Source: Acidimicrobiaceae bacterium (GTDB lineage: Bacteria > Actinomycetota > Acidimicrobiia > Acidimicrobiales > Acidimicrobiaceae). From it: DNA of 33,919 nt. The stretch spans positions 1-33,919 of the forward strand of contig JABEUM010000050.1 of assembly GCA_013044475.1 (NCBI GenBank), given 5' to 3'. This document shows positions 19,651 through 33,058 of the stretch, piece after piece. The first letter of the stretch is position 1. Each line of letters opens with the position of its first letter. The notes beneath the pieces are model-generated. The model saw nothing but the letters and a program-made list of their open reading frames with translations. It did no database searches and had not been told where the DNA came from. A program made the translations under genes and the position numbers.

Positions 19651-21804
19651 TTATGCAGTTACCAACGAGCGGGCAACAGTCCTCGCAAAAGCCTTTGAAC
19701 CCTCCAAAATATCTTTGGAAGAGATTCCGGCGGAAGCGACGATCGACGCACCCTTATTGACAAAGGCCAAGGCGAGTTCGTCTTTTGCCCCGCGATAGCT
19801 AACAGCAAAGGTAACAAAACTAGCGACGGTCTTACCGTGCAGAGGCGGAAGTGACGCAATGAACCTCATTGCGTTCTTCGCCGGATGCACCTTGGCGACT
19901 ACAAGTCCCTCGACCCATGCGCCAAAGACCACTAGATCCGCTGCCATAATGTCGTTCGAACGTGCCATCTTCGTCGAAATAACTTGCGTCGAATAACCAT
20001 GACGCCTGAGTTCAACGGCGATAGCTTCAGCGGCCGCCTTGGTATTTCCACCGTTGGATTCATAGACCAATACCGCGCTCTGCATAGCAGGTGCCTCGAT
20101 ATAAGCCGGATTCTCCGGTGCTACGGGAGCCTTGTTGCCGAGCTGAGAGATAACGCCTCGGGCTGCACTCATACCCTGGGCCATAGCGGTAACTACCGTA
20201 GAAGGTCCAATCCTGGCATCACCAATAGACCAAACACGATCCGCTACTTGGAAGGCAGAGTCAAGCCTGGTCCTCTCCCGGTCCGAGGCTAGCTGCGCCA
20301 GCTTCGGGCTACCTGCGTAGACGCCGCTGGCCTGCCAGCGGCGATCAGGAACACCGGTAAAGGTGGGGAGCGATCCAAACTTGACATCGCCGGATACCTT
20401 TGTCCAGCCCGGATCGATCCGGTAGCCCATCGCTAGCACTACCATATCGACGTCGACTGAGTAGGTCTTGGCTTCATCCAGCTTCGGAATCGATTGAGCG
20501 TCAGACTGGCTGGTCTCACAGATAACCGCCGAATGGACCTTTGCATTTTCGTCGCCCACTAGTTGGGTAACGGTCCTACAGAAGTCGACTTGGACACCTT
20601 CATGGCGTGCTTCGGCGATCTCGTCTTTCCTGGCCCTCGAGAATCTCTCATCCATCCAGTCGATACAGACCGAAGTTCCGCCAAGGCGAAGCACCGTCCT
20701 AGCCACGTCCATAGCCGTATTACCGGCACCAAGAACGAGAACCTTCTTGCCTGCTAGTTCGATACCGTGAGGGGTCCCAAGTAGTTGGGCCTTGCCCCGA
20801 TCCAAGAAGTGGCTAGCGTCGATGACTCCCTCGAGCTCCACGCCACCAATTCTGGGAACTATAGGAGCGGTGGCGCCAGCGGATACAACTACACCATCGA
20901 AGTCCGCATACAACGAACGCCAAGTCTCGGTTTCGATCTTGGTCGAGTAGCGGAAGTCGACACCGGCGGCACTCAGGGCATCGACCGTCGGATGCCAAGC
21001 CGAGTTAGGCAGGACATACGCCGGAATACCCCAACGCATTACGCCACCTGCTTCAGCGTCAGCTTCGAAGACCGTCACCTTGGCACCGGACCTTGCGAGT
21101 TCGTAAGCTGCACCAAGTCCAGCAGGACCCGCTCCGACTACTGCGACCGAAACTCCGGCGTCAGCAGCTGGGACCAGTGGGATAGCCTCAGTATTGTCGG
21201 CGATGAAACGCTCCAAACGCCCTACGGCTACGCCTCGACCACCAGCCAGCGACCAGGTACAAGAACCTTCACATTGGGTCTGCCAATCGCAGACCCTGGA
21301 GCAAGCTCCCGGCATGCAACTGGTCAACGAGAGTACCTCACGGCCGTGCTGGAGGTCTCCATCAACGATGGCCTTAATGAACTCAGGGATATTGTTGTGC
21401 GTCGGGCAGCCCCTAACACACGTCGGATCTGGGCAAGATATGCACCTTGCGGCCTCGATCTGCGCCTCTTCCAAGGAAGCAAATCCTTGACGGACTTCGT
21501 GCGACGAATCGAGTAGCACCTCGGGAAACAGATCCGAAGGGACCAGTCCTTGAGTAGTCATCATCGGTCCCTCGATGACTATGGCGCTAAATGGACAGGT
21601 CCTCTGGCATTGCCTACATCCGACACACAGATCCTGGTTAGCCTTGGCGATCCAGTTGTCTGGATCTAGCGACAATGCCTCAGTTGGGCAACGGACTATA
21701 CATTCTTGGCACCCGGCGCAGCGGTCGTGCAAAACGTGCACTACCGGCCTATCCAGCACCTGCTTTTTACTTTGCGAGCTTGTGCGCTCTCCTATGACTG
21801 TCAT
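19651..21804 (-). CDS. Ferredoxin (2x[4Fe-4S])-GltD-like FAD/NAD(P) oxidoreductase-flavodoxin fusion protein
   Basis: CAGCQECIVRCP and CVGCRQCQRTCP; GltD-type CISCPDPTCVRGCPTHNNIPEFI...CSRVCDWQTQCEGSC; FAD GAGPAGLGAAYELARSGAKVTVFEA; NADPH-type VLGAGNTAMDVART; C-terminal flavodoxin-like VYESNGGNTKAAAEAIAVEL...VVFGAWVEG. Confidence 0.9.
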   Translation of the reverse strand: MTVIGERTSSQSKKQVLDRPVVHVLHDRCAGCQECIVRCPTEALSLDPDNWIAKANQDLCVGCRQCQRTCPFSAIVIEGPMMTTQGLVPSDLFPEVLLDSSHEVRQGFASLEEAQIEAARCISCPDPTCVRGCPTHNNIPEFIKAIVDGDLQHGREVLSLTSCMPGACSRVCDWQTQCEGSCTWSLAGGRGVAVGRLERFIADNTEAIPLVPAADAGVSVAVVGAGPAGLGAAYELARSGAKVTVFEADAEAGGVMRWGIPAYVLPNSAWHPTVDALSAAGVDFRYSTKIETETWRSLYADFDGVVVSAGATAPIVPRIGGVELEGVIDASHFLDRGKAQLLGTPHGIELAGKKVLVLGAGNTAMDVARTVLRLGGTSVCIDWMDERFSRARKDEIAEARHEGVQVDFCRTVTQLVGDENAKVHSAVICETSQSDAQSIPKLDEAKTYSVDVDMVVLAMGYRIDPGWTKVSGDVKFGSLPTFTGVPDRRWQASGVYAGSPKLAQLASDRERTRLDSAFQVADRVWSIGDARIGPSTVVTAMAQGMSAARGVISQLGNKAPVAPENPAYIEAPAMQSAVLVYESNGGNTKAAAEAIAVELRRHGYSTQVISTKMARSNDIMAADLVVFGAWVEGLVVAKVHPAKNAMRFIASLPPLHGKTVASFVTFAVSYRGAKDELALAFVNKGASIVASAGISSKDILEGSKAFARTVARSLVTA

Positions 21805-21859: not shown

Positions 21860-23413
21860 TTACGACGCTGCGTGCATCGGCATATAGATAATGGTCGCAA
21901 GCACGCTTATGGCAAAGACCATTACGAGAGTCGCTGTAACGACGGCCTTCGGACGGCTCGACTGTGGTCCAAGGTCTCTTAGCGAGATCCGGTATGCGGC
22001 GTAGAGGCTAGCGGCGGTGCCGAGACCCATGACTGCAAGCTGGACGGAGACGATCGAAGGATTGGTCAGGAGCCTCGTGTTGTAGATTCCTGGGTGCACG
22101 CCAATTGGGTTTACGATCGCAGATCCGACCCTGGCCACGTGCTTGAAGAACTTAGGAAGCTGGCGTGAGAAGTAGTCGGCACCGGTGATCGGGATAAGTG
22201 CATAGGCGATCGTGGTGAACCAGCTCGACTTCGACGAGGAGCCCGCTAATGGCTTGCCGATAGCTCTAACCAGCATCGTAAGTCCCCACACTGCGAGGGC
22301 ACCGAGGGCTATGCCACCTAGGTAAGCCACTGGATCCGGATAGTGTGGCCAATGCAGGATTGAGTTGAGCTTGTCGTCGATAGTACCGTACCATCCAAGC
22401 GCATTGTACTGCTGGTAGAAGACCAGCCCGAAGAGGGCGGCAACTGCGATTCCGATATCTAGCCTGCGCTTGACCGGTTGGATAACCGACGTCAGAGGGG
22501 CTTGAACATATAGTCCGATGTTGTCAGATGGGCAAGACTTGTAGCACTCAGAACATAGTCCGCAAAACGCATTAGAGTCCGCACTACCTGGCCAGGTATA
22601 CCATGGGCAGCCAAAACCATCTTCGGATCCACGCATGCAGTCCTTGGTCTGACACGACATGCAGACCTCGCGGTCACGGGTCCTGAAACCAGCGACCATA
22701 CCCATCGAACCGACCGAGCCTATCAACGAGGACAGCGGGCAGATGTAGCGGCAGAAGCTGCGGCGTTCAAAGACCAAGAAGGAGAGCAGCGCCGTAGTAA
22801 CGATCCCAATAACCATAAAAGAGGTGGCTATCGGGGCGCCCGGCCCTGCGATGTTGAAGTACTCCTCGATAAAGGTCAAGAGGATGAATGTCGCCACCGA
22901 GATAACTAGTCCGTATCCAGCCCAGGACTCCGGAACCTTTCGCCCAAGGCCCAGGGCCTTCTGGGTCCTCTTGAAGAAGGTCTTTCTTTGGATCCATTCT
23001 CCGAATCCACCGAAAGGACACATCGAGCACCACGCCCTACCGACGACAACCATCATCACGAAGACGAGGCAGAACCAGAGGTACCAGGTGATAGCTGGAC
23101 CGAAGTTACGTCCAGGATCGGCAACACCAAAGATGCCGACCGCGATAACTATCCAGAAAATGATCTGGTTAGGAACGATTAGAAGGAACTGGAACTTCCT
23201 GTCCTTCATAGCTCTGGCGAGAAACTTACCGACCAGTGGAAGACGAGTTACATCAACTCCTGGATCGGTGGTCTTGAAATGCTCTTTTGCTTTCTCGCCT
23301 TGATAAGGGCGGAGATTAACCGCCACCGATATCGGATCATTTCTCAGCCCAATCGGCCGATCCGACTCCACCTTGCCATCTTGGCTTGGTGAACTTCCTT
23401 GCTTAAGTGTCAC
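21860..23413 (-). CDS. NapH/NosR-like polytopic membrane 4Fe-4S protein; start probably GTG at 23413 (ORF open to 23527)
   Basis: CSMCPFGG, CRYICPLSS, CMSCQTKDC, CGLCSECYKSCP plus multiple hydrophobic segments. GGAGGG Shine-Dalgarno 4 nt upstream of the in-frame GTG. Confidence 0.88.
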   Translation of the reverse strand: MTLKQGSSPSQDGKVESDRPIGLRNDPISVAVNLRPYQGEKAKEHFKTTDPGVDVTRLPLVGKFLARAMKDRKFQFLLIVPNQIIFWIVIAVGIFGVADPGRNFGPAITWYLWFCLVFVMMVVVGRAWCSMCPFGGFGEWIQRKTFFKRTQKALGLGRKVPESWAGYGLVISVATFILLTFIEEYFNIAGPGAPIATSFMVIGIVTTALLSFLVFERRSFCRYICPLSSLIGSVGSMGMVAGFRTRDREVCMSCQTKDCMRGSEDGFGCPWYTWPGSADSNAFCGLCSECYKSCPSDNIGLYVQAPLTSVIQPVKRRLDIGIAVAALFGLVFYQQYNALGWYGTIDDKLNSILHWPHYPDPVAYLGGIALGALAVWGLTMLVRAIGKPLAGSSSKSSWFTTIAYALIPITGADYFSRQLPKFFKHVARVGSAIVNPIGVHPGIYNTRLLTNPSIVSVQLAVMGLGTAASLYAAYRISLRDLGPQSSRPKAVVTATLVMVFAISVLATIIYMPMHAAS

Positions 23414-23589
23414 TTGACCCTCCATACAGTACTGTCCCCAACACAACCCGGTCCCGCTCCCTGCCTGATACAAAGAGACCCAAGTCACGTTGATAAATTT
23501 GTAAGGGCAATGAAGCCTCAGAACCAAGGGCAGAATTGAGGTATTAGTAGGGACTTTCGACCCTTTACTAATATCTTTCCATCTTGCTT

Positions 23590-23801: not shown

Positions 23802-23839
23802 ATGCAACTTCGCAATAATGCATTAATGCAATGAAGCAT
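23802..23839. promoter_or_regulatory. 38-bp imperfect dyad, candidate operator of the ArsR-type regulator
   Basis: ATGCAACTTCGCAATAATG|CATTAATGCAATGAAGCAT: 14 of 19 half-site positions are complementary about the centre, including the perfect core TAATGCATTA. Lies 56 bp upstream of arsR. Confidence 0.65.
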
Positions 23840-23894: not shown

Positions 23895-24269
23895 ATGAGA
23901 AGGCAGGACGTGAATCATCCAACTCCCCTTTACGAAGTAAAGGCGGAATTCTTCAAGGCGTTGGGACATCCTTCTAGAATCCGGGTACTTGAACTTTTGA
24001 GTTCCGGGCAGAAGTCGGTTTCAGAACTTCTCCCCCTCGTCGGGATCAACCCGCCTCATCTATCACAGCAGCTCGCAATATTGAAAAGGGCGGGCCTCGT
24101 GCAAACTCAGCGCGAGGGGACTTCGATCTTCTATTCACTCGCCTTCCCTGAATTGATAGATGTCCTAGCGGTGGCGCGAAGGGTTCTCATCGATGTCCTG
24201 GCTGAAAGGGCCGGCCTACTCGTTGACCTCCAGGCATCGGCTCCCCTCCCCTACCCCGGAGAGCTCTAA
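23895..24269 (+). CDS. ArsR/SmtB-family winged-helix transcriptional regulator lacking cysteines
   Basis: KAEFFKALGHPSRIRVLELLSSGQKSVSELLPLVGINPPHLSQQLAILKRAGLVQTQREGTSIFYSL is a canonical ArsR HTH. Confidence 0.93.
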   Translation: MRRQDVNHPTPLYEVKAEFFKALGHPSRIRVLELLSSGQKSVSELLPLVGINPPHLSQQLAILKRAGLVQTQREGTSIFYSLAFPELIDVLAVARRVLIDVLAERAGLLVDLQASAPLPYPGEL

Positions 24270-24322: not shown

Positions 24323-24823
24323 TTGGCTGATAAGCCCGTGATGCAGCAGTTATTGCGGCGGATTATCCGCCTCGGCAAGGTGACCGAGGATTTGGATTCG
24401 CCAGAAGAAGCCATTTCAACCGTAAGCGCACTGGCCACCGGTTCAATTAAGATGAGACACGTCGACTGCGGTTCTTGCAACGGCTGCGAAGTCGAACTAT
24501 CCATGTGCTTTTCTCCCATTTACGACCTGGAGAGATTTGGGATAAGCCTCACCGCATCGCCTCGACACTCAGACGGGTTGCTGGTCACCGGGATCGTGAC
24601 GATGAATATGAAAGGTCCGCTCATCGACGCCTATAGGGCGGTGCCGTCGCCAAAGGTAGTGATCGCAGTCGGTGACTGCGCTTGCGATGGAGGCGCATTC
24701 AGCGAAAGCTACGCTTACGCTGGCAACTGCGGAGACTACCTCGATGTCACGCTGAAAATTCCCGGATGCCCACCAGAACCGACGGATATCATTAGGGCAA
24801 TAAGACGGATATCGGCTAGATGA
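24323..24823 (+). CDS. Group-4 hydrogenase small subunit / NuoB-like protein (HyfI/HycG-like) of an Ehr-type complex; start 24323 (TTG) or 24341 (ATG)
   Basis: VDCGSCNGCEVEL...VIAVGDCACDGG...IPGCPPEPTDIIRAI: four conserved [4Fe-4S] ligand cysteines. Confidence 0.92.
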   Translation: MADKPVMQQLLRRIIRLGKVTEDLDSPEEAISTVSALATGSIKMRHVDCGSCNGCEVELSMCFSPIYDLERFGISLTASPRHSDGLLVTGIVTMNMKGPLIDAYRAVPSPKVVIAVGDCACDGGAFSESYAYAGNCGDYLDVTLKIPGCPPEPTDIIRAIRRISAR

Positions 24824-26811
24824 GCGAACTCGTCTTATCACCCATGGAAGCCGAGGAGGCCGAGAGGAGCGGCGGGGATCAGCTCTGGTACCTGATATCG
24901 AGCGTCGTTACCGTGGTAATTGGTGTCTTTGGACTTGCGGCCAGCTTGCGAATGATCTTCGGAACAAAAATCGCTCTGTCTTTGACTTCCGTACTGCCCT
25001 TAGCAGGACTCCACCTGTCGTCGGACGGTCTATCGGGGTTATTCGACCTCATAACTTCGATAGTCGCCATAACTGCTGGGATCTATGTATACCCCTACCT
25101 CTGTCATTCGAAGGCCTCAAGAACAACCGCGACCTTTATCCCACTTTTCGTGCTAACTATGTTGATGGTACCGATTGCGTCCACTTATTATGACTTTCTT
25201 TTCTTCTGGGAAGCCATGGCACTCATTTCGGCCGTTCTCGTCCTCGCAAATCACACCAAAACAGAGGCGTTCAAAGCCGGGATGTGGTACATATTCATGT
25301 CTCAGATCGGCTTCGCAATGATCCTGGGAGCACTTGCCTATCTCAGTGCTCACAGCGATGGCGGAGTCCTGATTGGAAACTCAGCCATCGGTAGGACAAT
25401 CTCTCCGATAGCTAGAGACCTGGTCTTTGTATTCAGCTTCTTCGGATTCGCATCCAAGGCCGGCCAACTCCCCCTCCATAGCTGGCTACCAAAAGCACAC
25501 CCTGAAGCCCCTACTCCGGTTTCGGCGCTGATGAGCGCAGCGATGGTCAATCTAGGCATCTACGGAATCATCCGGATCGATATAAAGCAGCTAGGCGCTG
25601 CGCCGATCTGGTGGGGAGTACTGATCATAACTATCGGTGCGACAACGGCCGTCTACAGTGCCCTTCACTCCTTAGTTTCGTCGGATATCAAGAGGCTCCT
25701 GGCCTGGTCAACGGGCGAAAACATGGGAATAGTAATCTGCGCTTTGGGAACCTTCGAAGTGCTCAATTCTGCCCACAATCCAGATATCGCCCAGGTTGCC
25801 CTGGCCGGGGCGATAATACAGCTCATCGGGCATAGCCTCTTCAAGTCTCTCGGTTTCATCTCGGCGGGCTCGGTCATCAGCTCGGCGGGCACCCGTAGCC
25901 TCGACAATATGGGTGGAATAATCCACCGAAATCCCGTCGCCGCCCTAGGTTTTTCAATAGCCGCATTGGGAGCGACCGGGCTGCCATTGGGAGCAGGATT
26001 TGTCGGAGAATGGCTGCTGCTCCAATCGCTAATTCATACACTTCCCACTCGATCGACCGTGCTAAATGTCCTCATGCCGAGCGCAGTTGGCATGCTTGCC
26101 TTGACTTTTGGCCTAGCGGTGGCGGCCATGACAAAGGCTTTCGGGGTCGGAATGCTCTCGAGACCAAGAAGCCAAGGTGCTGCAGAAAGTGCAAAGACGC
26201 CGGCGTGGGAAGCTACCACCATCTCCATCGCGTCGCTGCTTTGTGTTGTATTCAGCTTCAACCCCGCTTTTGTATCGAAGATTGTCAAATCCGCCAGCCA
26301 AGCGACACTAGGCGAAAAAGCAAAGGGTTCGGTCTCTATCCTCGGCCACATCACCCTGCGCGGGGTGGAGGGTTCGATATCTCCACTAAACCTTGGGCTT
26401 AGTGTTGTTATCGGTGTAATACTGTTCGCTTCGGTCACCGAGTGGAGAATACGAAAAAATTCCAGGCAGCTTGACGTCCCCCTTTGGGCCTGTGGAAGCA
26501 GCCAACCATCAGCGAAGATGCAGTACAATGCGGTCTCCTTCGCTCAGCCCTTGGAGAGAATCTTCAATTTGGTAGTCGCTACCGAAGAGTCGCTCGGGAC
26601 CGAACATGCAGACTCCGACATGCTCATTCTGCAAAGTGCGAGCTACGAAAGAACAAACTCGGATATCTTTGAAACTAAATTCTTCCCGGTGGTAGCCCGG
26701 GTGATGAGTACCCTCTCGCGTCAGGTGCAAAAGGGCCACTCGGGGAAGATCCGCAACTACTTGATCTACGGCGCTATAGGTTTCATCATCGTCCTGGTGG
26801 TGGCTAGGTGA
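24820..26811 (+). CDS. HyfB-like (NuoL/M antiporter family) membrane subunit
   Basis: FFWEAMALISAVLV, SKAGQLPLHSWLPKAHPEAPTPVSALMSAAMVNLGIYGIIRI; C-terminal WACGSSQPSAKMQYNAVSFAQPLERIF typical of HyfB. Confidence 0.93.
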   Translation: MSELVLSPMEAEEAERSGGDQLWYLISSVVTVVIGVFGLAASLRMIFGTKIALSLTSVLPLAGLHLSSDGLSGLFDLITSIVAITAGIYVYPYLCHSKASRTTATFIPLFVLTMLMVPIASTYYDFLFFWEAMALISAVLVLANHTKTEAFKAGMWYIFMSQIGFAMILGALAYLSAHSDGGVLIGNSAIGRTISPIARDLVFVFSFFGFASKAGQLPLHSWLPKAHPEAPTPVSALMSAAMVNLGIYGIIRIDIKQLGAAPIWWGVLIITIGATTAVYSALHSLVSSDIKRLLAWSTGENMGIVICALGTFEVLNSAHNPDIAQVALAGAIIQLIGHSLFKSLGFISAGSVISSAGTRSLDNMGGIIHRNPVAALGFSIAALGATGLPLGAGFVGEWLLLQSLIHTLPTRSTVLNVLMPSAVGMLALTFGLAVAAMTKAFGVGMLSRPRSQGAAESAKTPAWEATTISIASLLCVVFSFNPAFVSKIVKSASQATLGEKAKGSVSILGHITLRGVEGSISPLNLGLSVVIGVILFASVTEWRIRKNSRQLDVPLWACGSSQPSAKMQYNAVSFAQPLERIFNLVVATEESLGTEHADSDMLILQSASYERTNSDIFETKFFPVVARVMSTLSRQVQKGHSGKIRNYLIYGAIGFIIVLVVAR

Positions 26812-27773
26812 CCCGAGGATTTATATACGGCATCCTCCCGGTGCTGCAGCTACTTATGCTCGGTGCCACAGCACCGCTCGTATCCGGGCTAGCCAGGCAG
26901 ATTGGCGCAAAGCTTGAGGGTCGCCAAGGGGCCGGAGTGATGCAGCCCTATAGAGAACTCAGGAAGCTCTTTCAAAAAGAGACCCTGGAGCCGTCGACCA
27001 AAAGCGTATTCTTCACACTTGCACCGTATGTGCTCGCTTCATCCACCGCAGTGATAGCTATGGCTGGACCCTTTTTGGCTACCGAAAACTCCTTCAGCTC
27101 ATCCTCGGATCTACTAAGCGTCGTAGGCCTCCTCTTTCTGGGCAATATCGCAGTGGCATTGGCGGGACTCGACACTGGGACATCTTTCGGAGGAATGGGG
27201 GCTTCAAGAGAGTTGACGGTATCGTCGCTAGTCGAACCGACAATTCTGGTCGCCATATTCGCCCTCTCGATCCCGGCCCACTCGAGCAACTTGGGCGCTA
27301 TAGCCGCAAAATCGATCAGTAATCCGAACCTTATTTTCGCCCCTGGCTCGCTGCTGGCCCTCGCCGCTTTCGTAGTCGTCGTCTTGGCGGAGGCAAAAAG
27401 ATTCCCAGTAGATAATCCCTCCACTCATCTCGAGCTGACCATGATCCACGAGGCGATGCTCTTGGAGTACAGCGGTCCTCGTCTCGGAGTAATCGAATGG
27501 GCGTCGTCTTTACGGTTGACTATTCTTCTGGGCCTAGTTGCCAACCTGTTCTTCCCTATCGGTCTCTTTAGCACCGGTCAGAGTCCAATTCTTCTGCTCG
27601 TCTCTTGCTTGGTTTTCCTGGTAAAGGTCCTCGTACTCGGCTCAATCCTCTCCTTCGCCGAGGTGTTTATGGCAAAGCTGAGGCTCTTCCGAGTTCCCGA
27701 ACTACTGGCGAGTTCCTTCATCTTGGCGCTGCTGTCCGTGGTTACTTCCTACTTCTTCACGGCCACAAGGTAG
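26808..27773 (+). CDS. HyfC/HycD-like (NuoH family) membrane subunit, GTG start
   Basis: GRQGAGVMQPYRELRKLFQKE; FPVDNPSTHLELTMIHEAMLLEYSGPRLGVIEWASSLR. Confidence 0.93.
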   Translation: MTRGFIYGILPVLQLLMLGATAPLVSGLARQIGAKLEGRQGAGVMQPYRELRKLFQKETLEPSTKSVFFTLAPYVLASSTAVIAMAGPFLATENSFSSSSDLLSVVGLLFLGNIAVALAGLDTGTSFGGMGASRELTVSSLVEPTILVAIFALSIPAHSSNLGAIAAKSISNPNLIFAPGSLLALAAFVVVVLAEAKRFPVDNPSTHLELTMIHEAMLLEYSGPRLGVIEWASSLRLTILLGLVANLFFPIGLFSTGQSPILLLVSCLVFLVKVLVLGSILSFAEVFMAKLRLFRVPELLASSFILALLSVVTSYFFTATR

Positions 27774-27778
27774 AACTG

Positions 27779-28435
27779 ATGACAAACTCCTCACTGATCG
27801 ACCTAGCAAGTGCGGCGCTTTTATTAAGCGGCGTATTCATCGCCAGCTATAACGACCTAGCAAAACAGGGCAGCCTTCTTAGACTGCAAGGAATAGCGCT
27901 CTCGACGCTCCCGTTCCTTATGGCTTTCGAGCACAACTCCTTGGATCTCTGGATCGCCGGTTTTCTAGTCCTTGGTGTCCGCGGTATAGTGCTACCCGGC
28001 CTCGTAAAATCAGCTGCCAAGCGTATTCCAGCCGAGAAAGAAAGATCCCACTCTCGGATATCCACTACGACCTCCCTGCTTATTTCGGGGGCATCTACGA
28101 TCGTCGCCTACTTAGGCACCATCCCCTTGAGCCACCTTGACTCGTCGAGTACCACCAAGGCGTCGTCTATCGGTCTCGCCCTAGTTCTCATCGGGGTGCA
28201 AATCCTCATCTTCAAAAGGATGGCGGTAGGTCAGATAGTCGGGTTCCTAGTACTTGACAACGGGATAGCCGCTTTTGGTTTCTTGGCAACTCTTGGCGTT
28301 CCGCTGCTACTCGAACTCGGAGGCAGCCTCGATCTACTCTTTGCGATCCTGATCATGGGGGCACTTACCAGCAGGATGATAGTGAAGTTTGGCACAACGG
28401 ACGTCGACGAACTCTCCGAATTAGGCGATCGATGA
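27779..28435 (+). CDS. HyfE-like membrane subunit (NuoK-like region)
   Basis: ATG at 27779, 5 nt after the preceding stop (ORF track start at 27605 overlaps the upstream gene). Hydrophobic protein with MAVGQIVGFLVLDNGIAAFGFLATLGVPLLLELGGSLDLL typical of HyfE. Confidence 0.86.
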   Translation: MTNSSLIDLASAALLLSGVFIASYNDLAKQGSLLRLQGIALSTLPFLMAFEHNSLDLWIAGFLVLGVRGIVLPGLVKSAAKRIPAEKERSHSRISTTTSLLISGASTIVAYLGTIPLSHLDSSSTTKASSIGLALVLIGVQILIFKRMAVGQIVGFLVLDNGIAAFGFLATLGVPLLLELGGSLDLLFAILIMGALTSRMIVKFGTTDVDELSELGDR

Positions 28436-29919
28436 ACCAACTACTAGTATCTACGGCACTTTTACTTCCGATAGTCGCGAGTCTCATTAGCTTTAGCGTC
28501 AAAAGAGCGAAGGTCTCAGAAGCGATATCGATCGCTACGAGCCTGGTACTGCTGGCGATATCGATACTCGCGATGACTTCGGTAGTCGACCCGAGCCGAG
28601 TTGTCATCGACGGACTTTTCAGGCTTGACCGACTCGCTCAGATAATGCTCCTGGTGATCGGGTCGGTATCTACCCTCGCCGGATGGGCAAGTATCAGCTT
28701 CTTAGACAGCCTGATACTGAATCACGAGTTTTCCCGAAACCCACAGGGTCCCCCACCCAACCGGCGTACCTACTGGGCACTGTTCAATATTTTTAGTTTC
28801 GCGATGGTCTTGGCCGTTCTTTCCAACAACCTAGGCATCACTTGGGTAGCGATTGAAACGACCACAATAGCCACCACTTTCCTCGTCGGATTCAAAAGGA
28901 CCCCGCTTTCGCTAGAGGCGGCTTGGAAATACGCGATGATCTGCTCCTTCGGCATTGCTATTGCCCTTTTGGGTGTAAGCATTGTCTACTTCGCAGCCGT
29001 CCATGGTGGACTCAGTGGTTCGCAAGCGCTACAGATCAATGTCCTGACTACCCACTTTCGCCTGCTAGACCATTCCGCCATGAGACTCGGAGTCGGCCTG
29101 ATGATCTTGGGGTTTGGCGCAAAGGCCGGCCTCGTACCTTTCCACAGCTGGCTTCCAGACGCCCACTCTCAGGCCCCCGCTCCGATCTCGGCTCTGATGT
29201 CAGGGGTGCTAATCTCGGTCGCCTTCTCGGTCATTTTGCGAGTGGTATCGATCTCCAACCTTGTACTAGGGAGTTCTTACGCTCATACCTACCTAGCAGT
29301 CATGGGACTCGCCTCGATGGCAGTCGCATCATTGTTGCTCATCAACCAGCGGGACTATAAAAGGATGCTGGCACAGTCTTCGATTGAACAGATAGGTTTT
29401 GTGGCGGTAGCGGCGTCTTTCGGCACCGAGTTAGCCATCGCCGCACTACTCCTCCACGTGGTAGTGCACGGCCTAGGAAAGAGCCTCGCATTCATCTCGG
29501 TCGGCAGGGTAGAGTCGGGATTTCATAGCACGGAAATTTCGAAGGTCAAGGGACTCCTTAAGAACTCTCCATCGGTCGGGTTCGGCCTGATTGTCGCGTT
29601 GTGCATCCTCATTGGGCTTCCACCGTTCGGTCTATTTTGGTCCGAGACCGCTATCATCACCTCGGCTTCTGGAACGCACTTTGTACTGGTTTCGGCCGGA
29701 GCTATAGCTTTCATCCTGATCAGTTCGGTCGCTTTGGCTCGGTCGGTGCTAAAAATGACCCTCGGCCTAGGGGATTCCGGTTCAGCGATAGCCGTATCTA
29801 GGGGTTTTCTCCCGATAGCAGGTACAGCATTTTTGGCTTCGGTTCTCTTGGGAATCTTGGCCTCACCGACAAACGGTCTACTAATACGGGCTGCCCACTC
29901 AATCGTCGGGATCGGATAA
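28432..29919 (+). CDS. HyfF-like (NuoL/M/N antiporter family) membrane subunit
   Basis: GITWVAIETTTIATTFLVGF; GAKAGLVPFHSWLPDAHSQAPAPISALMSGVLISVAF; DYKRMLAQSSIEQIGFVAVA. Confidence 0.94.
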   Translation: MNQLLVSTALLLPIVASLISFSVKRAKVSEAISIATSLVLLAISILAMTSVVDPSRVVIDGLFRLDRLAQIMLLVIGSVSTLAGWASISFLDSLILNHEFSRNPQGPPPNRRTYWALFNIFSFAMVLAVLSNNLGITWVAIETTTIATTFLVGFKRTPLSLEAAWKYAMICSFGIAIALLGVSIVYFAAVHGGLSGSQALQINVLTTHFRLLDHSAMRLGVGLMILGFGAKAGLVPFHSWLPDAHSQAPAPISALMSGVLISVAFSVILRVVSISNLVLGSSYAHTYLAVMGLASMAVASLLLINQRDYKRMLAQSSIEQIGFVAVAASFGTELAIAALLLHVVVHGLGKSLAFISVGRVESGFHSTEISKVKGLLKNSPSVGFGLIVALCILIGLPPFGLFWSETAIITSASGTHFVLVSAGAIAFILISSVALARSVLKMTLGLGDSGSAIAVSRGFLPIAGTAFLASVLLGILASPTNGLLIRAAHSIVGIG

Positions 29920-29929
29920 GGAGAGCCAG

Positions 29930-31411
29930 ATGAACGTGACCCCGACATTATCTCAGACCGAGGTCTATCTTTCGATAAAGAGGTCCCTCGAAGATGGGGA
30001 CCGGCTGGCTTCGATCTTCGCCACGGACGATGTTGAAAACGGCCTTCTCAGGGTAATTTACCTGACCGTAAGCCCGGCTAGCGGCCGCATTACTCGGGCG
30101 ATGACCACAATTGACCGCTACAAACCTAAATTGGCTTCGCTAGCTGCCCTAGACTTCTCGGCGGGCCGCTTCGAACGAGAGATGGCCGACCTTTTTGGTG
30201 TCGAACTCATCGGCCACCCTCAGCCTATGAGGCTGGTCAAGCACGCTCACTGGCCCGAGGAGTACTACCCGCTTCGAAAAGACGCACCAAAGAAGGTCGA
30301 TTTTCCACCTACCAGCGGCGGCTATCCATTCGTCGAGGTAAAGGGCGACTCCGTCTACGAGATACCGGTCGGTCCGATACACGCGGGGATGATTGAACCG
30401 GGCCACTTTAGATTCTCTGCCGTAGGTGAATCTATCCTCAAAATGAAGGCGAGGCTATGGTTTGTCCATAGGGGGATAGAGAAGCTGATGGAGAATCAAC
30501 CCCTCAACGAAGCGATCACCCTCGCCGAGAAGATTTCCGGAGACACCTCCGCCGGGCACTCCGTCGCCTTGGCCAGGGCAATCGAAGACGCTCTTGGAGT
30601 AATAGTCGACCCAGAAATAGAAGAACTACGGATCTGCCTAGTCGAGCTAGAGGCCGCGTACAACCACATAAACGACGTAGGGGCCATTGCGAATGACGTT
30701 GGACTTGGGATCATAAACGCCCACGCACTGAATATCAAAGAGGCTCTACTAAGAATCAACAAGGAGTCGACCGGCACCAGGCTGCTAAGGGGAACGACCA
30801 AGGTCTCAGAAACAAAGTTCAATTCATTGCCAGACCCAGAAAAACTGGGTCGAATTGAAACGGACCTAGAGGAACTGGTAGAGATTCTCTTTTCCTCCTC
30901 GGTAGCGATGGATAGGTTCGTCGGAGCAGGATACCTTTCGAACCGAGACGCATTGAGGATGGGATGTACCGGTTACGTAGCCATGGCCAGCGGGATCAAG
31001 GACGACCTCCGAGACTGCCAGTACCCTACCTGGGCCAGACCTTCTCACGGTGTTGCCGCAGACGGTGATGTCCTAGCCAGGTTGAACCTGCGCATCGAGG
31101 GGGCAAAACAGGCCCTTGAGATAGTCCGCAATATTTCATCACGTATTGCCATAAAGCAACACACGCAGACCAGTATCCCGCTGCCCGACCCCCATGATGA
31201 GAAAATTGGTGTATCCGCTCTGCAGGGATGGCGAGGGCGAATCGTCCATAGCGTCATCGTCAAAGACCATCGAATCTTAAGGGCTAAGATCGTCGATCCC
31301 TCATTCATGAATTGGCCCGCTTTGGCCGTTGCCTTAGAGGGTTCTATTGTCGCTGACTTTCCACTCGTCAATAAGAGCTTCAACCTCTCTTATGCGGGAA
31401 ACGATCTCTAG
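29930..31411 (+). CDS. HyfG/HycE-like NuoC-NuoD fusion large subunit lacking the NiFe-binding cysteines (Ehr-type large subunit)
   Basis: NuoC-like FEREMADLFGVELIGHPQPMRLVKHAHWPEEYYPLRKD; NuoD-like IPVGPIHAGMIEPGHFRFSAVGE...RLWFVHRGIEKLME; L1 KISGDTSAGHS and C-terminal NLSYAGNDL* replace RxCGxCxxxH and DPCxxC. Confidence 0.93.
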   Translation: MNVTPTLSQTEVYLSIKRSLEDGDRLASIFATDDVENGLLRVIYLTVSPASGRITRAMTTIDRYKPKLASLAALDFSAGRFEREMADLFGVELIGHPQPMRLVKHAHWPEEYYPLRKDAPKKVDFPPTSGGYPFVEVKGDSVYEIPVGPIHAGMIEPGHFRFSAVGESILKMKARLWFVHRGIEKLMENQPLNEAITLAEKISGDTSAGHSVALARAIEDALGVIVDPEIEELRICLVELEAAYNHINDVGAIANDVGLGIINAHALNIKEALLRINKESTGTRLLRGTTKVSETKFNSLPDPEKLGRIETDLEELVEILFSSSVAMDRFVGAGYLSNRDALRMGCTGYVAMASGIKDDLRDCQYPTWARPSHGVAADGDVLARLNLRIEGAKQALEIVRNISSRIAIKQHTQTSIPLPDPHDEKIGVSALQGWRGRIVHSVIVKDHRILRAKIVDPSFMNWPALAVALEGSIVADFPLVNKSFNLSYAGNDL

Positions 31412-31630: not shown

Positions 31631-33058
31631 TTGGTACCGTATCCGTCCTGGCTTCACGCTGGCGATAACGCGTGGCAGTTGACGGCGGCGACCCTAGTTG
31701 GACTGATGAGCGTCCCCGGGCTGGCGGTGCTCTACGGAGGAATCGTCCAGAAGAAGTGGGCTGTCAACACCATGCTGATGGCTTTTTCTGCGTTCAGTTC
31801 GGTTCTGATTGTATGGGTCCTGTGGGCGTTCAACATGGGTTTTGGAACACCGATTCACCTAGGACCTGGCATACTGGGTGGCCTAGTCGGCTCACCTCAC
31901 TCCGTACTAGGCCATGTGGGCGAACAGTCGCAAGCCAATATTCCGCTACTAAGTGGAATAGGGTTAATGCCCAAGTTTCGTTTCCCGCAGTCGTCGCTAG
32001 TCTACTTTCAGTTCGTTTTCGCCGGCATAACCCCGCTGTTATTCCTAGGCTCCGTCCTCGGGAGGATGAACTTCAGGGCATGGATGGTCTTCGTACCACT
32101 ATGGACCACTTTCGTCTACTCGGTAAACGCCATGCTCGTTTGGGGCGGCGGTTACTGGGCTGCTAAAGGTGCAGTCGATTATTCCGGTGGATACGTGATT
32201 CACCTTGCGGCCGGCGTATCTGGCTTCGTCGCTGCAGCAGTGGTAGGTCCACGACTCAAACGAGACCGAGAAAACATGGCCCCCAACAACTTGCTCCTCG
32301 TGGCGGTTGGAGCAGGAATTCTCTGGATGGGTTGGAACGGGTTCAATGGTGGAGACCCATACTTCGCAAGTGCTGACGCATCGGCTGCGGTCCTCAACAC
32401 CAACCTGGCGACTGCGGCGTCCCTGCTGACTTGGCTCTTCATGGACATGAGCATGCACACCAAAAAGCCCACCTTTTTGGGAGCCGTCAATGGAATGATC
32501 GTCGGCCTAGTGACCATCACCCCTGCGGCTGGTTATGTAAACGGATGGGGAGCCCTAACTATGGGAATCGTCGCCTCGTTCGTGGTCTGGTTCTCATTCA
32601 ACAAGCTCTCCACCAAGTGGATCTTCGCCAAGGTCGATGATGCTTTAGGCGTAGTTCACACCCACGGATTAGCCGGACTGATGGGTGGATTGATGGTCGG
32701 TCTGTTCGCCGATCCGAAGATGATCGTCTACTTGGGTCTCGGAAAGACTTCAAACGTGTCGGTCGCAGGCCTATTCTACGGCCACCCCTGGCAGGTGATG
32801 ATCCAGCTCTTTGCGGCATTGACGATCATCGTCTGGGACGCCACGGTAACCTTCCTGCTGCTCAAGCTAATTGGCTTGGTGATTCCGCTCAGGATGCCCG
32901 ATGACGTTCTCGAAATCGGTGACCTTGCGATCCACTCCGAACAGCTCGAGCCGTCCGAGTCTGCAAGGAGGCTCGTCACCTACGCTGAGTATGCCGACGA
33001 TCGTGAGCCGACTCAGACCAGGATCGACCCAGGGGTAAAACGGGTACCGCTGGAATAG
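31631..33058 (+). CDS. amt: Ammonium transporter (Amt family), TTG start
   Basis: GLMSVPGLAVLYGGIVQKKWAVNTMLM; GYVIHLAAGVSGF and GVVHTHGLAGLMGG (Amt twin-His regions); WMGWNGFNGGDPYFASADASAAVLNTNLATA; upstream AAAGGAGG. Confidence 0.95.
   Translation: MVPYPSWLHAGDNAWQLTAATLVGLMSVPGLAVLYGGIVQKKWAVNTMLMAFSAFSSVLIVWVLWAFNMGFGTPIHLGPGILGGLVGSPHSVLGHVGEQSQANIPLLSGIGLMPKFRFPQSSLVYFQFVFAGITPLLFLGSVLGRMNFRAWMVFVPLWTTFVYSVNAMLVWGGGYWAAKGAVDYSGGYVIHLAAGVSGFVAAAVVGPRLKRDRENMAPNNLLLVAVGAGILWMGWNGFNGGDPYFASADASAAVLNTNLATAASLLTWLFMDMSMHTKKPTFLGAVNGMIVGLVTITPAAGYVNGWGALTMGIVASFVVWFSFNKLSTKWIFAKVDDALGVVHTHGLAGLMGGLMVGLFADPKMIVYLGLGKTSNVSVAGLFYGHPWQVMIQLFAALTIIVWDATVTFLLLKLIGLVIPLRMPDDVLEIGDLAIHSEQLEPSESARRLVTYAEYADDREPTQTRIDPGVKRVPLE

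Follow-up and report, generated by a model that had tools for sequence, protein, structure and literature searches.

The closest described relatives of the locus analysed here are iron-sulfur flavoenzymes with a GltD-like core and membrane polyferredoxins of the NapH type. For the NfnB subunit of Thermotoga, the cluster ligands have been listed, including an unusual Glu ligand (Glu117), and a YRR motif is known to bind the 2'-phosphate of NADP(H) (PMC7596348). The same motif distinguishes forms of DsrL, being present in the NADP(H)-dependent type and missing from those that use NAD(H) (PMC7596348). NapH-like proteins, which are homologs of the putatively quinone-binding NapH, are described as electron carriers that link oxidoreductases to donors such as quinol (PMC8238504). 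The locus lies in a 33,919-nucleotide stretch of Acidimicrobiaceae DNA (here called the window), taken from an assembly of 2.38 Mb in 192 contigs; relatives in the same family include one single-contig genome (G010) of 2,158,157 bases. It holds a GltD-like gene next to a NapH-like one, and the former probably encodes the half that handles NADH in a respiratory module, so far uncharacterised, of acid-loving Actinobacteria.

The oxidoreductase is encoded on the reverse strand at positions 19651..21804, in an open reading frame that starts with ATG and specifies 717 residues. This is a real, conserved gene, with a reading frame that is unbroken in sister species (95-98% identity) and in a further species of the genus (63-64%). 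The initial annotation described the product as a fusion of a 2x[4Fe-4S] ferredoxin, a GltD-like oxidoreductase and a flavodoxin, and this architecture is borne out by invariant ligands and by Pfam matches that all exceed the curated gathering cut-offs. Residues 28-74 (21583..21723) form an N-terminal ferredoxin, matched by Fer4_7 at 38.7 bits against a cut-off of 27, with Cys 29/32/35/39 and 60/63/66/70 as the two sets of ligands. There follows a GltD-type two-cluster domain at residues 102-205 (21190..21501; Fer4_20, E 8.3e-30), with ligands assigned by homology, and then an FAD domain with an embedded pyridine-nucleotide domain at residues 219-467 (20404..21150; Pyr_redox_2, E 8.7e-23). A flexible linker at residues 559-573 (20086..20130), where pLDDT falls below 50 in a whole-chain model of mean pLDDT 85.1 and pTM 0.82, leads to the C-terminal flavodoxin domain at residues 575-716 (19657..20082), which is recognised by Pfam, profile comparison, structural model, Foldseek and alignment alike.

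Residue conservation was read from an alignment of 40 oxidoreductase homologs. All eight Cys of the N-terminal ferredoxin are invariant, as are C121, C124, C129, C133, C172, C178, C182 and E198 of the GltD domain. Cluster ligands were assigned by alignment to Thermotoga maritima NfnB using the published ligand list (PMC7596348), which gives one set of Cys 121/124/129/182 and a second of Cys 133/172/178 plus Glu198, the latter residue aligning with NfnB Glu117. The protein thus has the features that define the GltD-like superfamily, namely a two-cluster domain with seven Cys and one carboxylate/amide ligand, and an FAD domain with an embedded NAD(P) domain. In Foldseek searches of the PDB, the core finds NfnL, 5vj7 and GltD at TM scores of ~0.8 on the target (TMt), with NfnL 5jfc as the best match at 0.82. 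Fold and ligand set therefore agree with the kinship to GltD and NfnL that had been proposed from sequence. The nucleotide specificity is a different matter. At residues 382-388 (20641..20661) the window protein carries the segment DWMDERF in place of the NADPH-type YRR motif, and this replacement, of the form [DE]-W-[MLV], is seen in 40/40 sequences, with residue 382 always acidic and residue 383 always Trp. At this motif, YRR is present in each of five GltD relatives taken from other phyla. Because the motif is replaced, and because DsrL forms without it use NAD(H), the substrate is probably NADH rather than NADPH, so the earlier assignment to NAD(P)H can provisionally be narrowed.

The C-terminal domain adopts a five-stranded alpha/beta flavodoxin fold. 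Pfam places Flavodoxin_1 at residues 579-691 (34.8 bits, cut-off 25) and Flavodoxin_3 at 579-670 (31.6 bits, cut-off 27.5). When modelled alone the domain reaches a pLDDT of 94.8 with a complete b-a-b-a-b-a-b-a-b-a order, and this model is matched by solved flavodoxins at TM 0.7-0.84, the natural matches including that of Megasphaera (2fz5, TMt 0.84) and that of D. vulgaris (~0.78). A profile of 28 C-terminal domains matches the C. beijerinckii flavodoxin over nearly its full length (E 5.7e-12), and 23 of these domains individually match Flavodoxin_1. This establishes the flavodoxin-like assignment of the initial annotation. The FMN loops of the window protein are plausible, if non-canonical: the P-loop reads ESNGGNT, against the textbook (S/T)xTGxT, the second loop GAWVEG and the third VTFAV. 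They keep the family pattern, with Phe where most relatives carry Tyr, and the domain may hold FMN. In genus g6, which forms the sister clade of the window's genus (support 100/99), all three loops have lost the family pattern and read DGASETV (phosphate loop), GSQTQG and VVHTLS, making FMN binding there doubtful. The domain is nonetheless kept in g6 (L030:9121-9594, L038:10713-11186), possibly as a pseudo-flavodoxin with a structural role.

Across the 52 classified family members, the flavodoxin is absent from 13 and has degenerate FMN loops in six more. Full-length forms occur in most genera, while the proteins of genera g3, g8 and several other lineages end at about residue 560. A maximum-likelihood tree was built from the core only, with 54 rows (33 with flavodoxin, six degenerate, 13 without and two truncated). 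On this tree, in which 13 inner branches are left open and the root is placed by two paralogs, the presence or absence of the flavodoxin needs six changes. As the deepest split in the family has flavodoxin forms on either side of it, the simplest reading would be an early gain followed by several losses. The flavodoxin tail is in any case a dispensable, non-constant part of the enzyme.

Directly upstream, with ~55 bp between the two, lies the gene for a NapH-like membrane polyferredoxin (21860..23527, reverse strand; the true start is probably inside the open reading frame). The predicted protein has two Fer4_5 (PF12801) matches, hydrophobic stretches and soluble [4Fe-4S] motifs. Fer4_5 is found in 17/17 partner homologs, among which 12 Cys are invariant, enough for three [4Fe-4S] clusters, and a conserved C-terminal half carries the motif DYFxRQLPKF. 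The likeness to NapH/MauN is weak, at 31.1 bits against a cut-off of 213 for the curated model, and no relative better than E 0.058 was found in the PDB. The gene pair itself is strictly kept. In all 43 oxidoreductase loci a NapH-like gene stands directly 5' on the same strand, usually less than 60 bp away or overlapping, as the two open reading frames do in G010. Forms without a flavodoxin keep this pairing, and so does a distant genome of the phylum in which the identities are 37% and 51%. No third conserved gene accompanies the pair across the loci examined. We infer that the oxidoreductase is the soluble subunit of a two-gene module and that it makes physical contact with the NapH-like protein. 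The constant partner, together with the repeated loss of the flavodoxin, speaks against the 'self-contained' shuttle envisaged in the initial annotation. Six open reading frames that seemed to fuse the membrane protein to the oxidoreductase were set aside, since the extra part is an alternate frame over the upstream gene. Two genomes, G116 and G332, carry second, divergent copies of the whole pair (L170:6733-10181, L172:5662-9512) in addition to the main copy; these second copies have no flavodoxin.

Other neighbours are less constant. A complex-I/group-4-hydrogenase-like membrane operon of six genes, resembling Ehr, lies at 24323-31411 on the forward strand, divergent from the cassette. It includes a fused NuoC-NuoD-type subunit and has no NADH module; in its large subunit the NiFe-binding Cys motifs are absent by eye (ISGDTSAGHS). 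An ammonium transporter gene follows at 31631-33058. Between operon and cassette lies a divergent gene for an ArsR/SmtB-family regulator (23895..24269, forward strand; Pfam/NCBIfam), which among the loci examined is beside the cassette only in this genus. As its product contains no Cys, it is not a classical metal sensor. Just before this gene, at 23802-23839, there is an imperfect palindrome around GCATTAATGC that could be an operator. A second palindromic block, TAGGGACTTTCGRCCCTTTACTAATAT, is found upstream of the NapH-like gene at 23539-23576 and is kept in 4/4 relatives of the genus; it resembles a DosR/DevR box. G116 has GGGACATAAGTCCC at a similar place and most other loci have no such block, so that it was rejected as a general feature of the cassette and belongs only to the window's genus and G116. 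In G328 (L177:1324-3275), a flavodoxin-less cassette follows genes for a ferredoxin and for what is, by eye, a ferritin-like di-iron protein, which may hint at one electron acceptor.

Orthologs of the oxidoreductase occur across Acidimicrobiales. Of 396 genomes drawn evenly from the class, ~31 carry one (E <1e-200), nearly all within the order, and the other matches are mostly GltD-only. A scan of a collection of 85,462 species gave a similar picture among the matches listed, with Acidimicrobiia-type records ranking first, below which the matches fall off steeply to GltD-only proteins. The window protein extends ~355 aa past its GNTAMD motif; among the matches listed, none of the 66 GltD relatives checked has a C-terminal extension of more than 191 aa past this motif, and only one (L150, without flavodoxin) has an N-terminal ferredoxin. 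The Fer4-GltD-flavodoxin architecture is thus likely rare outside Acidimicrobiales, as judged from these sequences. A 3401 bp contig labelled Bacillota (L084) also carries the cassette, which is probably a binning error and possibly a transfer. The membrane partner is likewise rare in the phylum (10/398 genomes), and its distant relatives outside the order stand without an oxidoreductase, G622 excepted. The initial annotation had raised the prospect that the architecture might be common and already characterised. Inside the order the three-part form is indeed common, but no characterisation was found, and open-access full text yielded no description of either the Fer4-GltD-flavodoxin protein or the two-gene system.

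Taken together, the 43/43 pairing, the NfnL/GltD core with its invariant ligands and the dispensable flavodoxin lead us to a model of a two-gene NADH:(mena)quinone module, which we put forward tentatively as the best available reading, and which falls a little short of being probable. Electrons would run from NADH through FAD and four [4Fe-4S] clusters to the membrane polyferredoxin and quinone. NADH would deliver a hydride to FAD, from which electrons would exit singly, first by the pair of GltD clusters (with the Glu ligand on the proximal cluster) and then by the two clusters of the N-terminal ferredoxin, to reach the clusters of the membrane protein and finally the quinone pool. Tethered by a flexible linker, the flavodoxin may serve as an accessory one-electron store or outlet that has been lost or has decayed in several lineages. 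Quinone as the membrane acceptor is suggested by analogy to NapH (PMC8238504); the direction of flow is similarly conjectural, and the reverse could apply. Several observations weigh against this model. The closest annotated family match of the partner is weak, as described above, and the physiological use is not tied to a particular pathway: cassette presence does not track RuBisCO overall, nor 2-oxoacid:ferredoxin oxidoreductase in the genomes tested, so the cassette does not seem to be part of one carbon pathway. NuoF-like proteins are found in 74/75 tested genomes, including every cassette bearer, and for this reason the module is no obvious substitute for complex I.

It is conceivable, though unlikely, that the enzyme bifurcates instead, with the GltD-type FAD splitting the NADH pair so that one electron would reach menaquinone by way of the N-terminal clusters and polyferredoxin, and the flavodoxin would take up the other to become a low-potential carrier. 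The core is closest to NfnL/NfnB, in which the corresponding FAD is the bifurcating one (PMC8097209), the proximal cluster keeps its Glu ligand, and FixABCX provides a precedent with NADH as donor and quinone and flavodoxin as acceptors (PMC10734219). However, GOGAT and DPD share this core without being described as bifurcating (PMC8097209), so that bifurcation is not predicted by the core on its own, and neither an NfnS nor an Etf partner was identified beside the oxidoreductase. The flavodoxin, moreover, is absent or degenerate in about one third of the family while the rest of the module persists, and a component so often lost is unlikely to be an obligate acceptor. The more specific claim, of a new quinone-coupled bifurcating or confurcating NADH enzyme that feeds a NapH-like polyferredoxin/menaquinone and a same-chain flavodoxin from an NfnL-type FAD, and that would supply acidophilic Actinobacteria with low-potential electrons without resting on Rnf, Nfn or FixABCX, has in our estimate a rather small chance of being correct. 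We rate as similarly doubtful a role as cytoplasmic donor, whereby NADH would reduce flavodoxin or free ferredoxin for biosynthesis, with the membrane protein acting as an anchor or serving an unrelated periplasmic reductase. GltD-like modules do commonly supply a partner enzyme (PMC8097209), and a more distant NapH-like gene sits in an apparent molybdoenzyme cluster (L167, by eye), but such a role fits poorly with a strict two-gene pairing that has no third conserved member and with a flavodoxin that is frequently absent.

Reverse flow, from quinol through the membrane polyferredoxin to reduction of NAD+, could support CO2 fixation in iron-oxidising relatives. RuBisCO is present in 15 of the 21 tested genomes of family f1, all of which bear the cassette, and AvDsrL is a GltD-like enzyme able to favour NAD+ reduction (PMC7596348). 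Against this, all 22 genomes with a cassette that were tested outside family f1 lack RuBisCO, and the reaction would be uphill from menaquinol with a conserved pair that has no ion-pumping subunit, making this direction improbable. The initial annotation had looked instead to the adjoining Ehr-like complex, for which the oxidoreductase would be a dedicated donor or acceptor. The two operons do adjoin in the window, as they do in its close relatives G002 and G003, but these are the only such cases among 43 loci, the operons are divergent, and in L023, from a more divergent species of this genus, the cassette stands with no complex-I-like operon alongside. The operon was accordingly dropped as a conserved partner, and a dedicated link to it now seems highly improbable. 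Gene-neighbourhood conservation indicates that a membrane link is real, but that it is to the NapH-like protein and not to the complex-I-like operon.

If the NADH:(mena)quinone model is right, a route that links NADH to the quinone pool of the membrane independently of complex I is widespread, and unstudied, in Acidimicrobiales, an order that includes acidophilic iron oxidisers. The strict gene pair lends itself to a direct test of which way the electrons flow, and the lineages in which the flavodoxin was repeatedly lost or has decayed serve as a natural experiment on the contribution of such a fused domain. The pair also gives a recognition rule for genomes, a NapH-like gene followed by a Fer4-GltD gene, where curated models alone would only suggest a glutamate synthase subunit.

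In comparison with known systems, NfnL/NfnB is the best fold match and among the best sequence matches, sharing two [4Fe-4S] clusters with a Glu ligand, FAD and an embedded nucleotide domain. It differs in its NADP-type YRR motif, absent here, whereas the present enzyme has an extra N-terminal 2x[4Fe-4S] head, a C-terminal flavodoxin and a pairing with a membrane polyferredoxin; no NfnS-type (FAD/[2Fe-2S]) gene was identified beside the oxidoreductase, the constant neighbour being NapH-like. GltD, the small subunit of NADPH glutamate synthase, has the same Fe-S/FAD/NAD(P) core, but the NADP motif is missing in the window protein, which scores 269.9 bits on TIGR01316 (GltD) against a cut-off of 471.75, and there is no gltB-sized gene beside it. 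In DsrL, too, a GltD-like core is joined to an additional 2x[4Fe-4S] ferredoxin, and its NAD(H)-type DsrL-1 likewise lacks YRR. In DsrL, however, the ferredoxin is C-terminal after a linker and there is no flavodoxin, whereas here the ferredoxin is N-terminal and the C-terminus is a flavodoxin; DsrL is moreover defined by dsrAB, which was not seen within the window. AegA/YgfT, of formate-dependent urate utilisation, do combine a ferredoxin module at the N-terminus with a GltD domain behind it, but they lack a flavodoxin and have no described NapH-like partner, and the window protein stays well below their curated NCBIfam models (215 against a cut-off of 1003, and 202.6 against 1154 bits). The likeness to FixABCX/EtfABCX is a functional analogy only, in the use of NADH, quinone and flavodoxin as redox partners, as the Etf core is unrelated to the GltD core. 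The partner shares Fer4_5, hydrophobic stretches and [4Fe-4S] motifs with the NapH-like polyferredoxins (PF12801) of periplasmic nitrate reductase and of flavinylated NapH-like systems, but is longer, falls below the NapH/MauN cut-off and is paired with a cytoplasmic NADH-type enzyme. By these comparisons the enzyme appears as a variant of the GltD-like Fe-S flavoenzymes that lies outside Nfn, GltD, DsrL and AegA. Each of its modules is known, while no description was found, in the open-access papers searched, of their combination: a Fer4 head, an NADH-type GltD core, a flavodoxin tail and strict pairing with a NapH-like protein.
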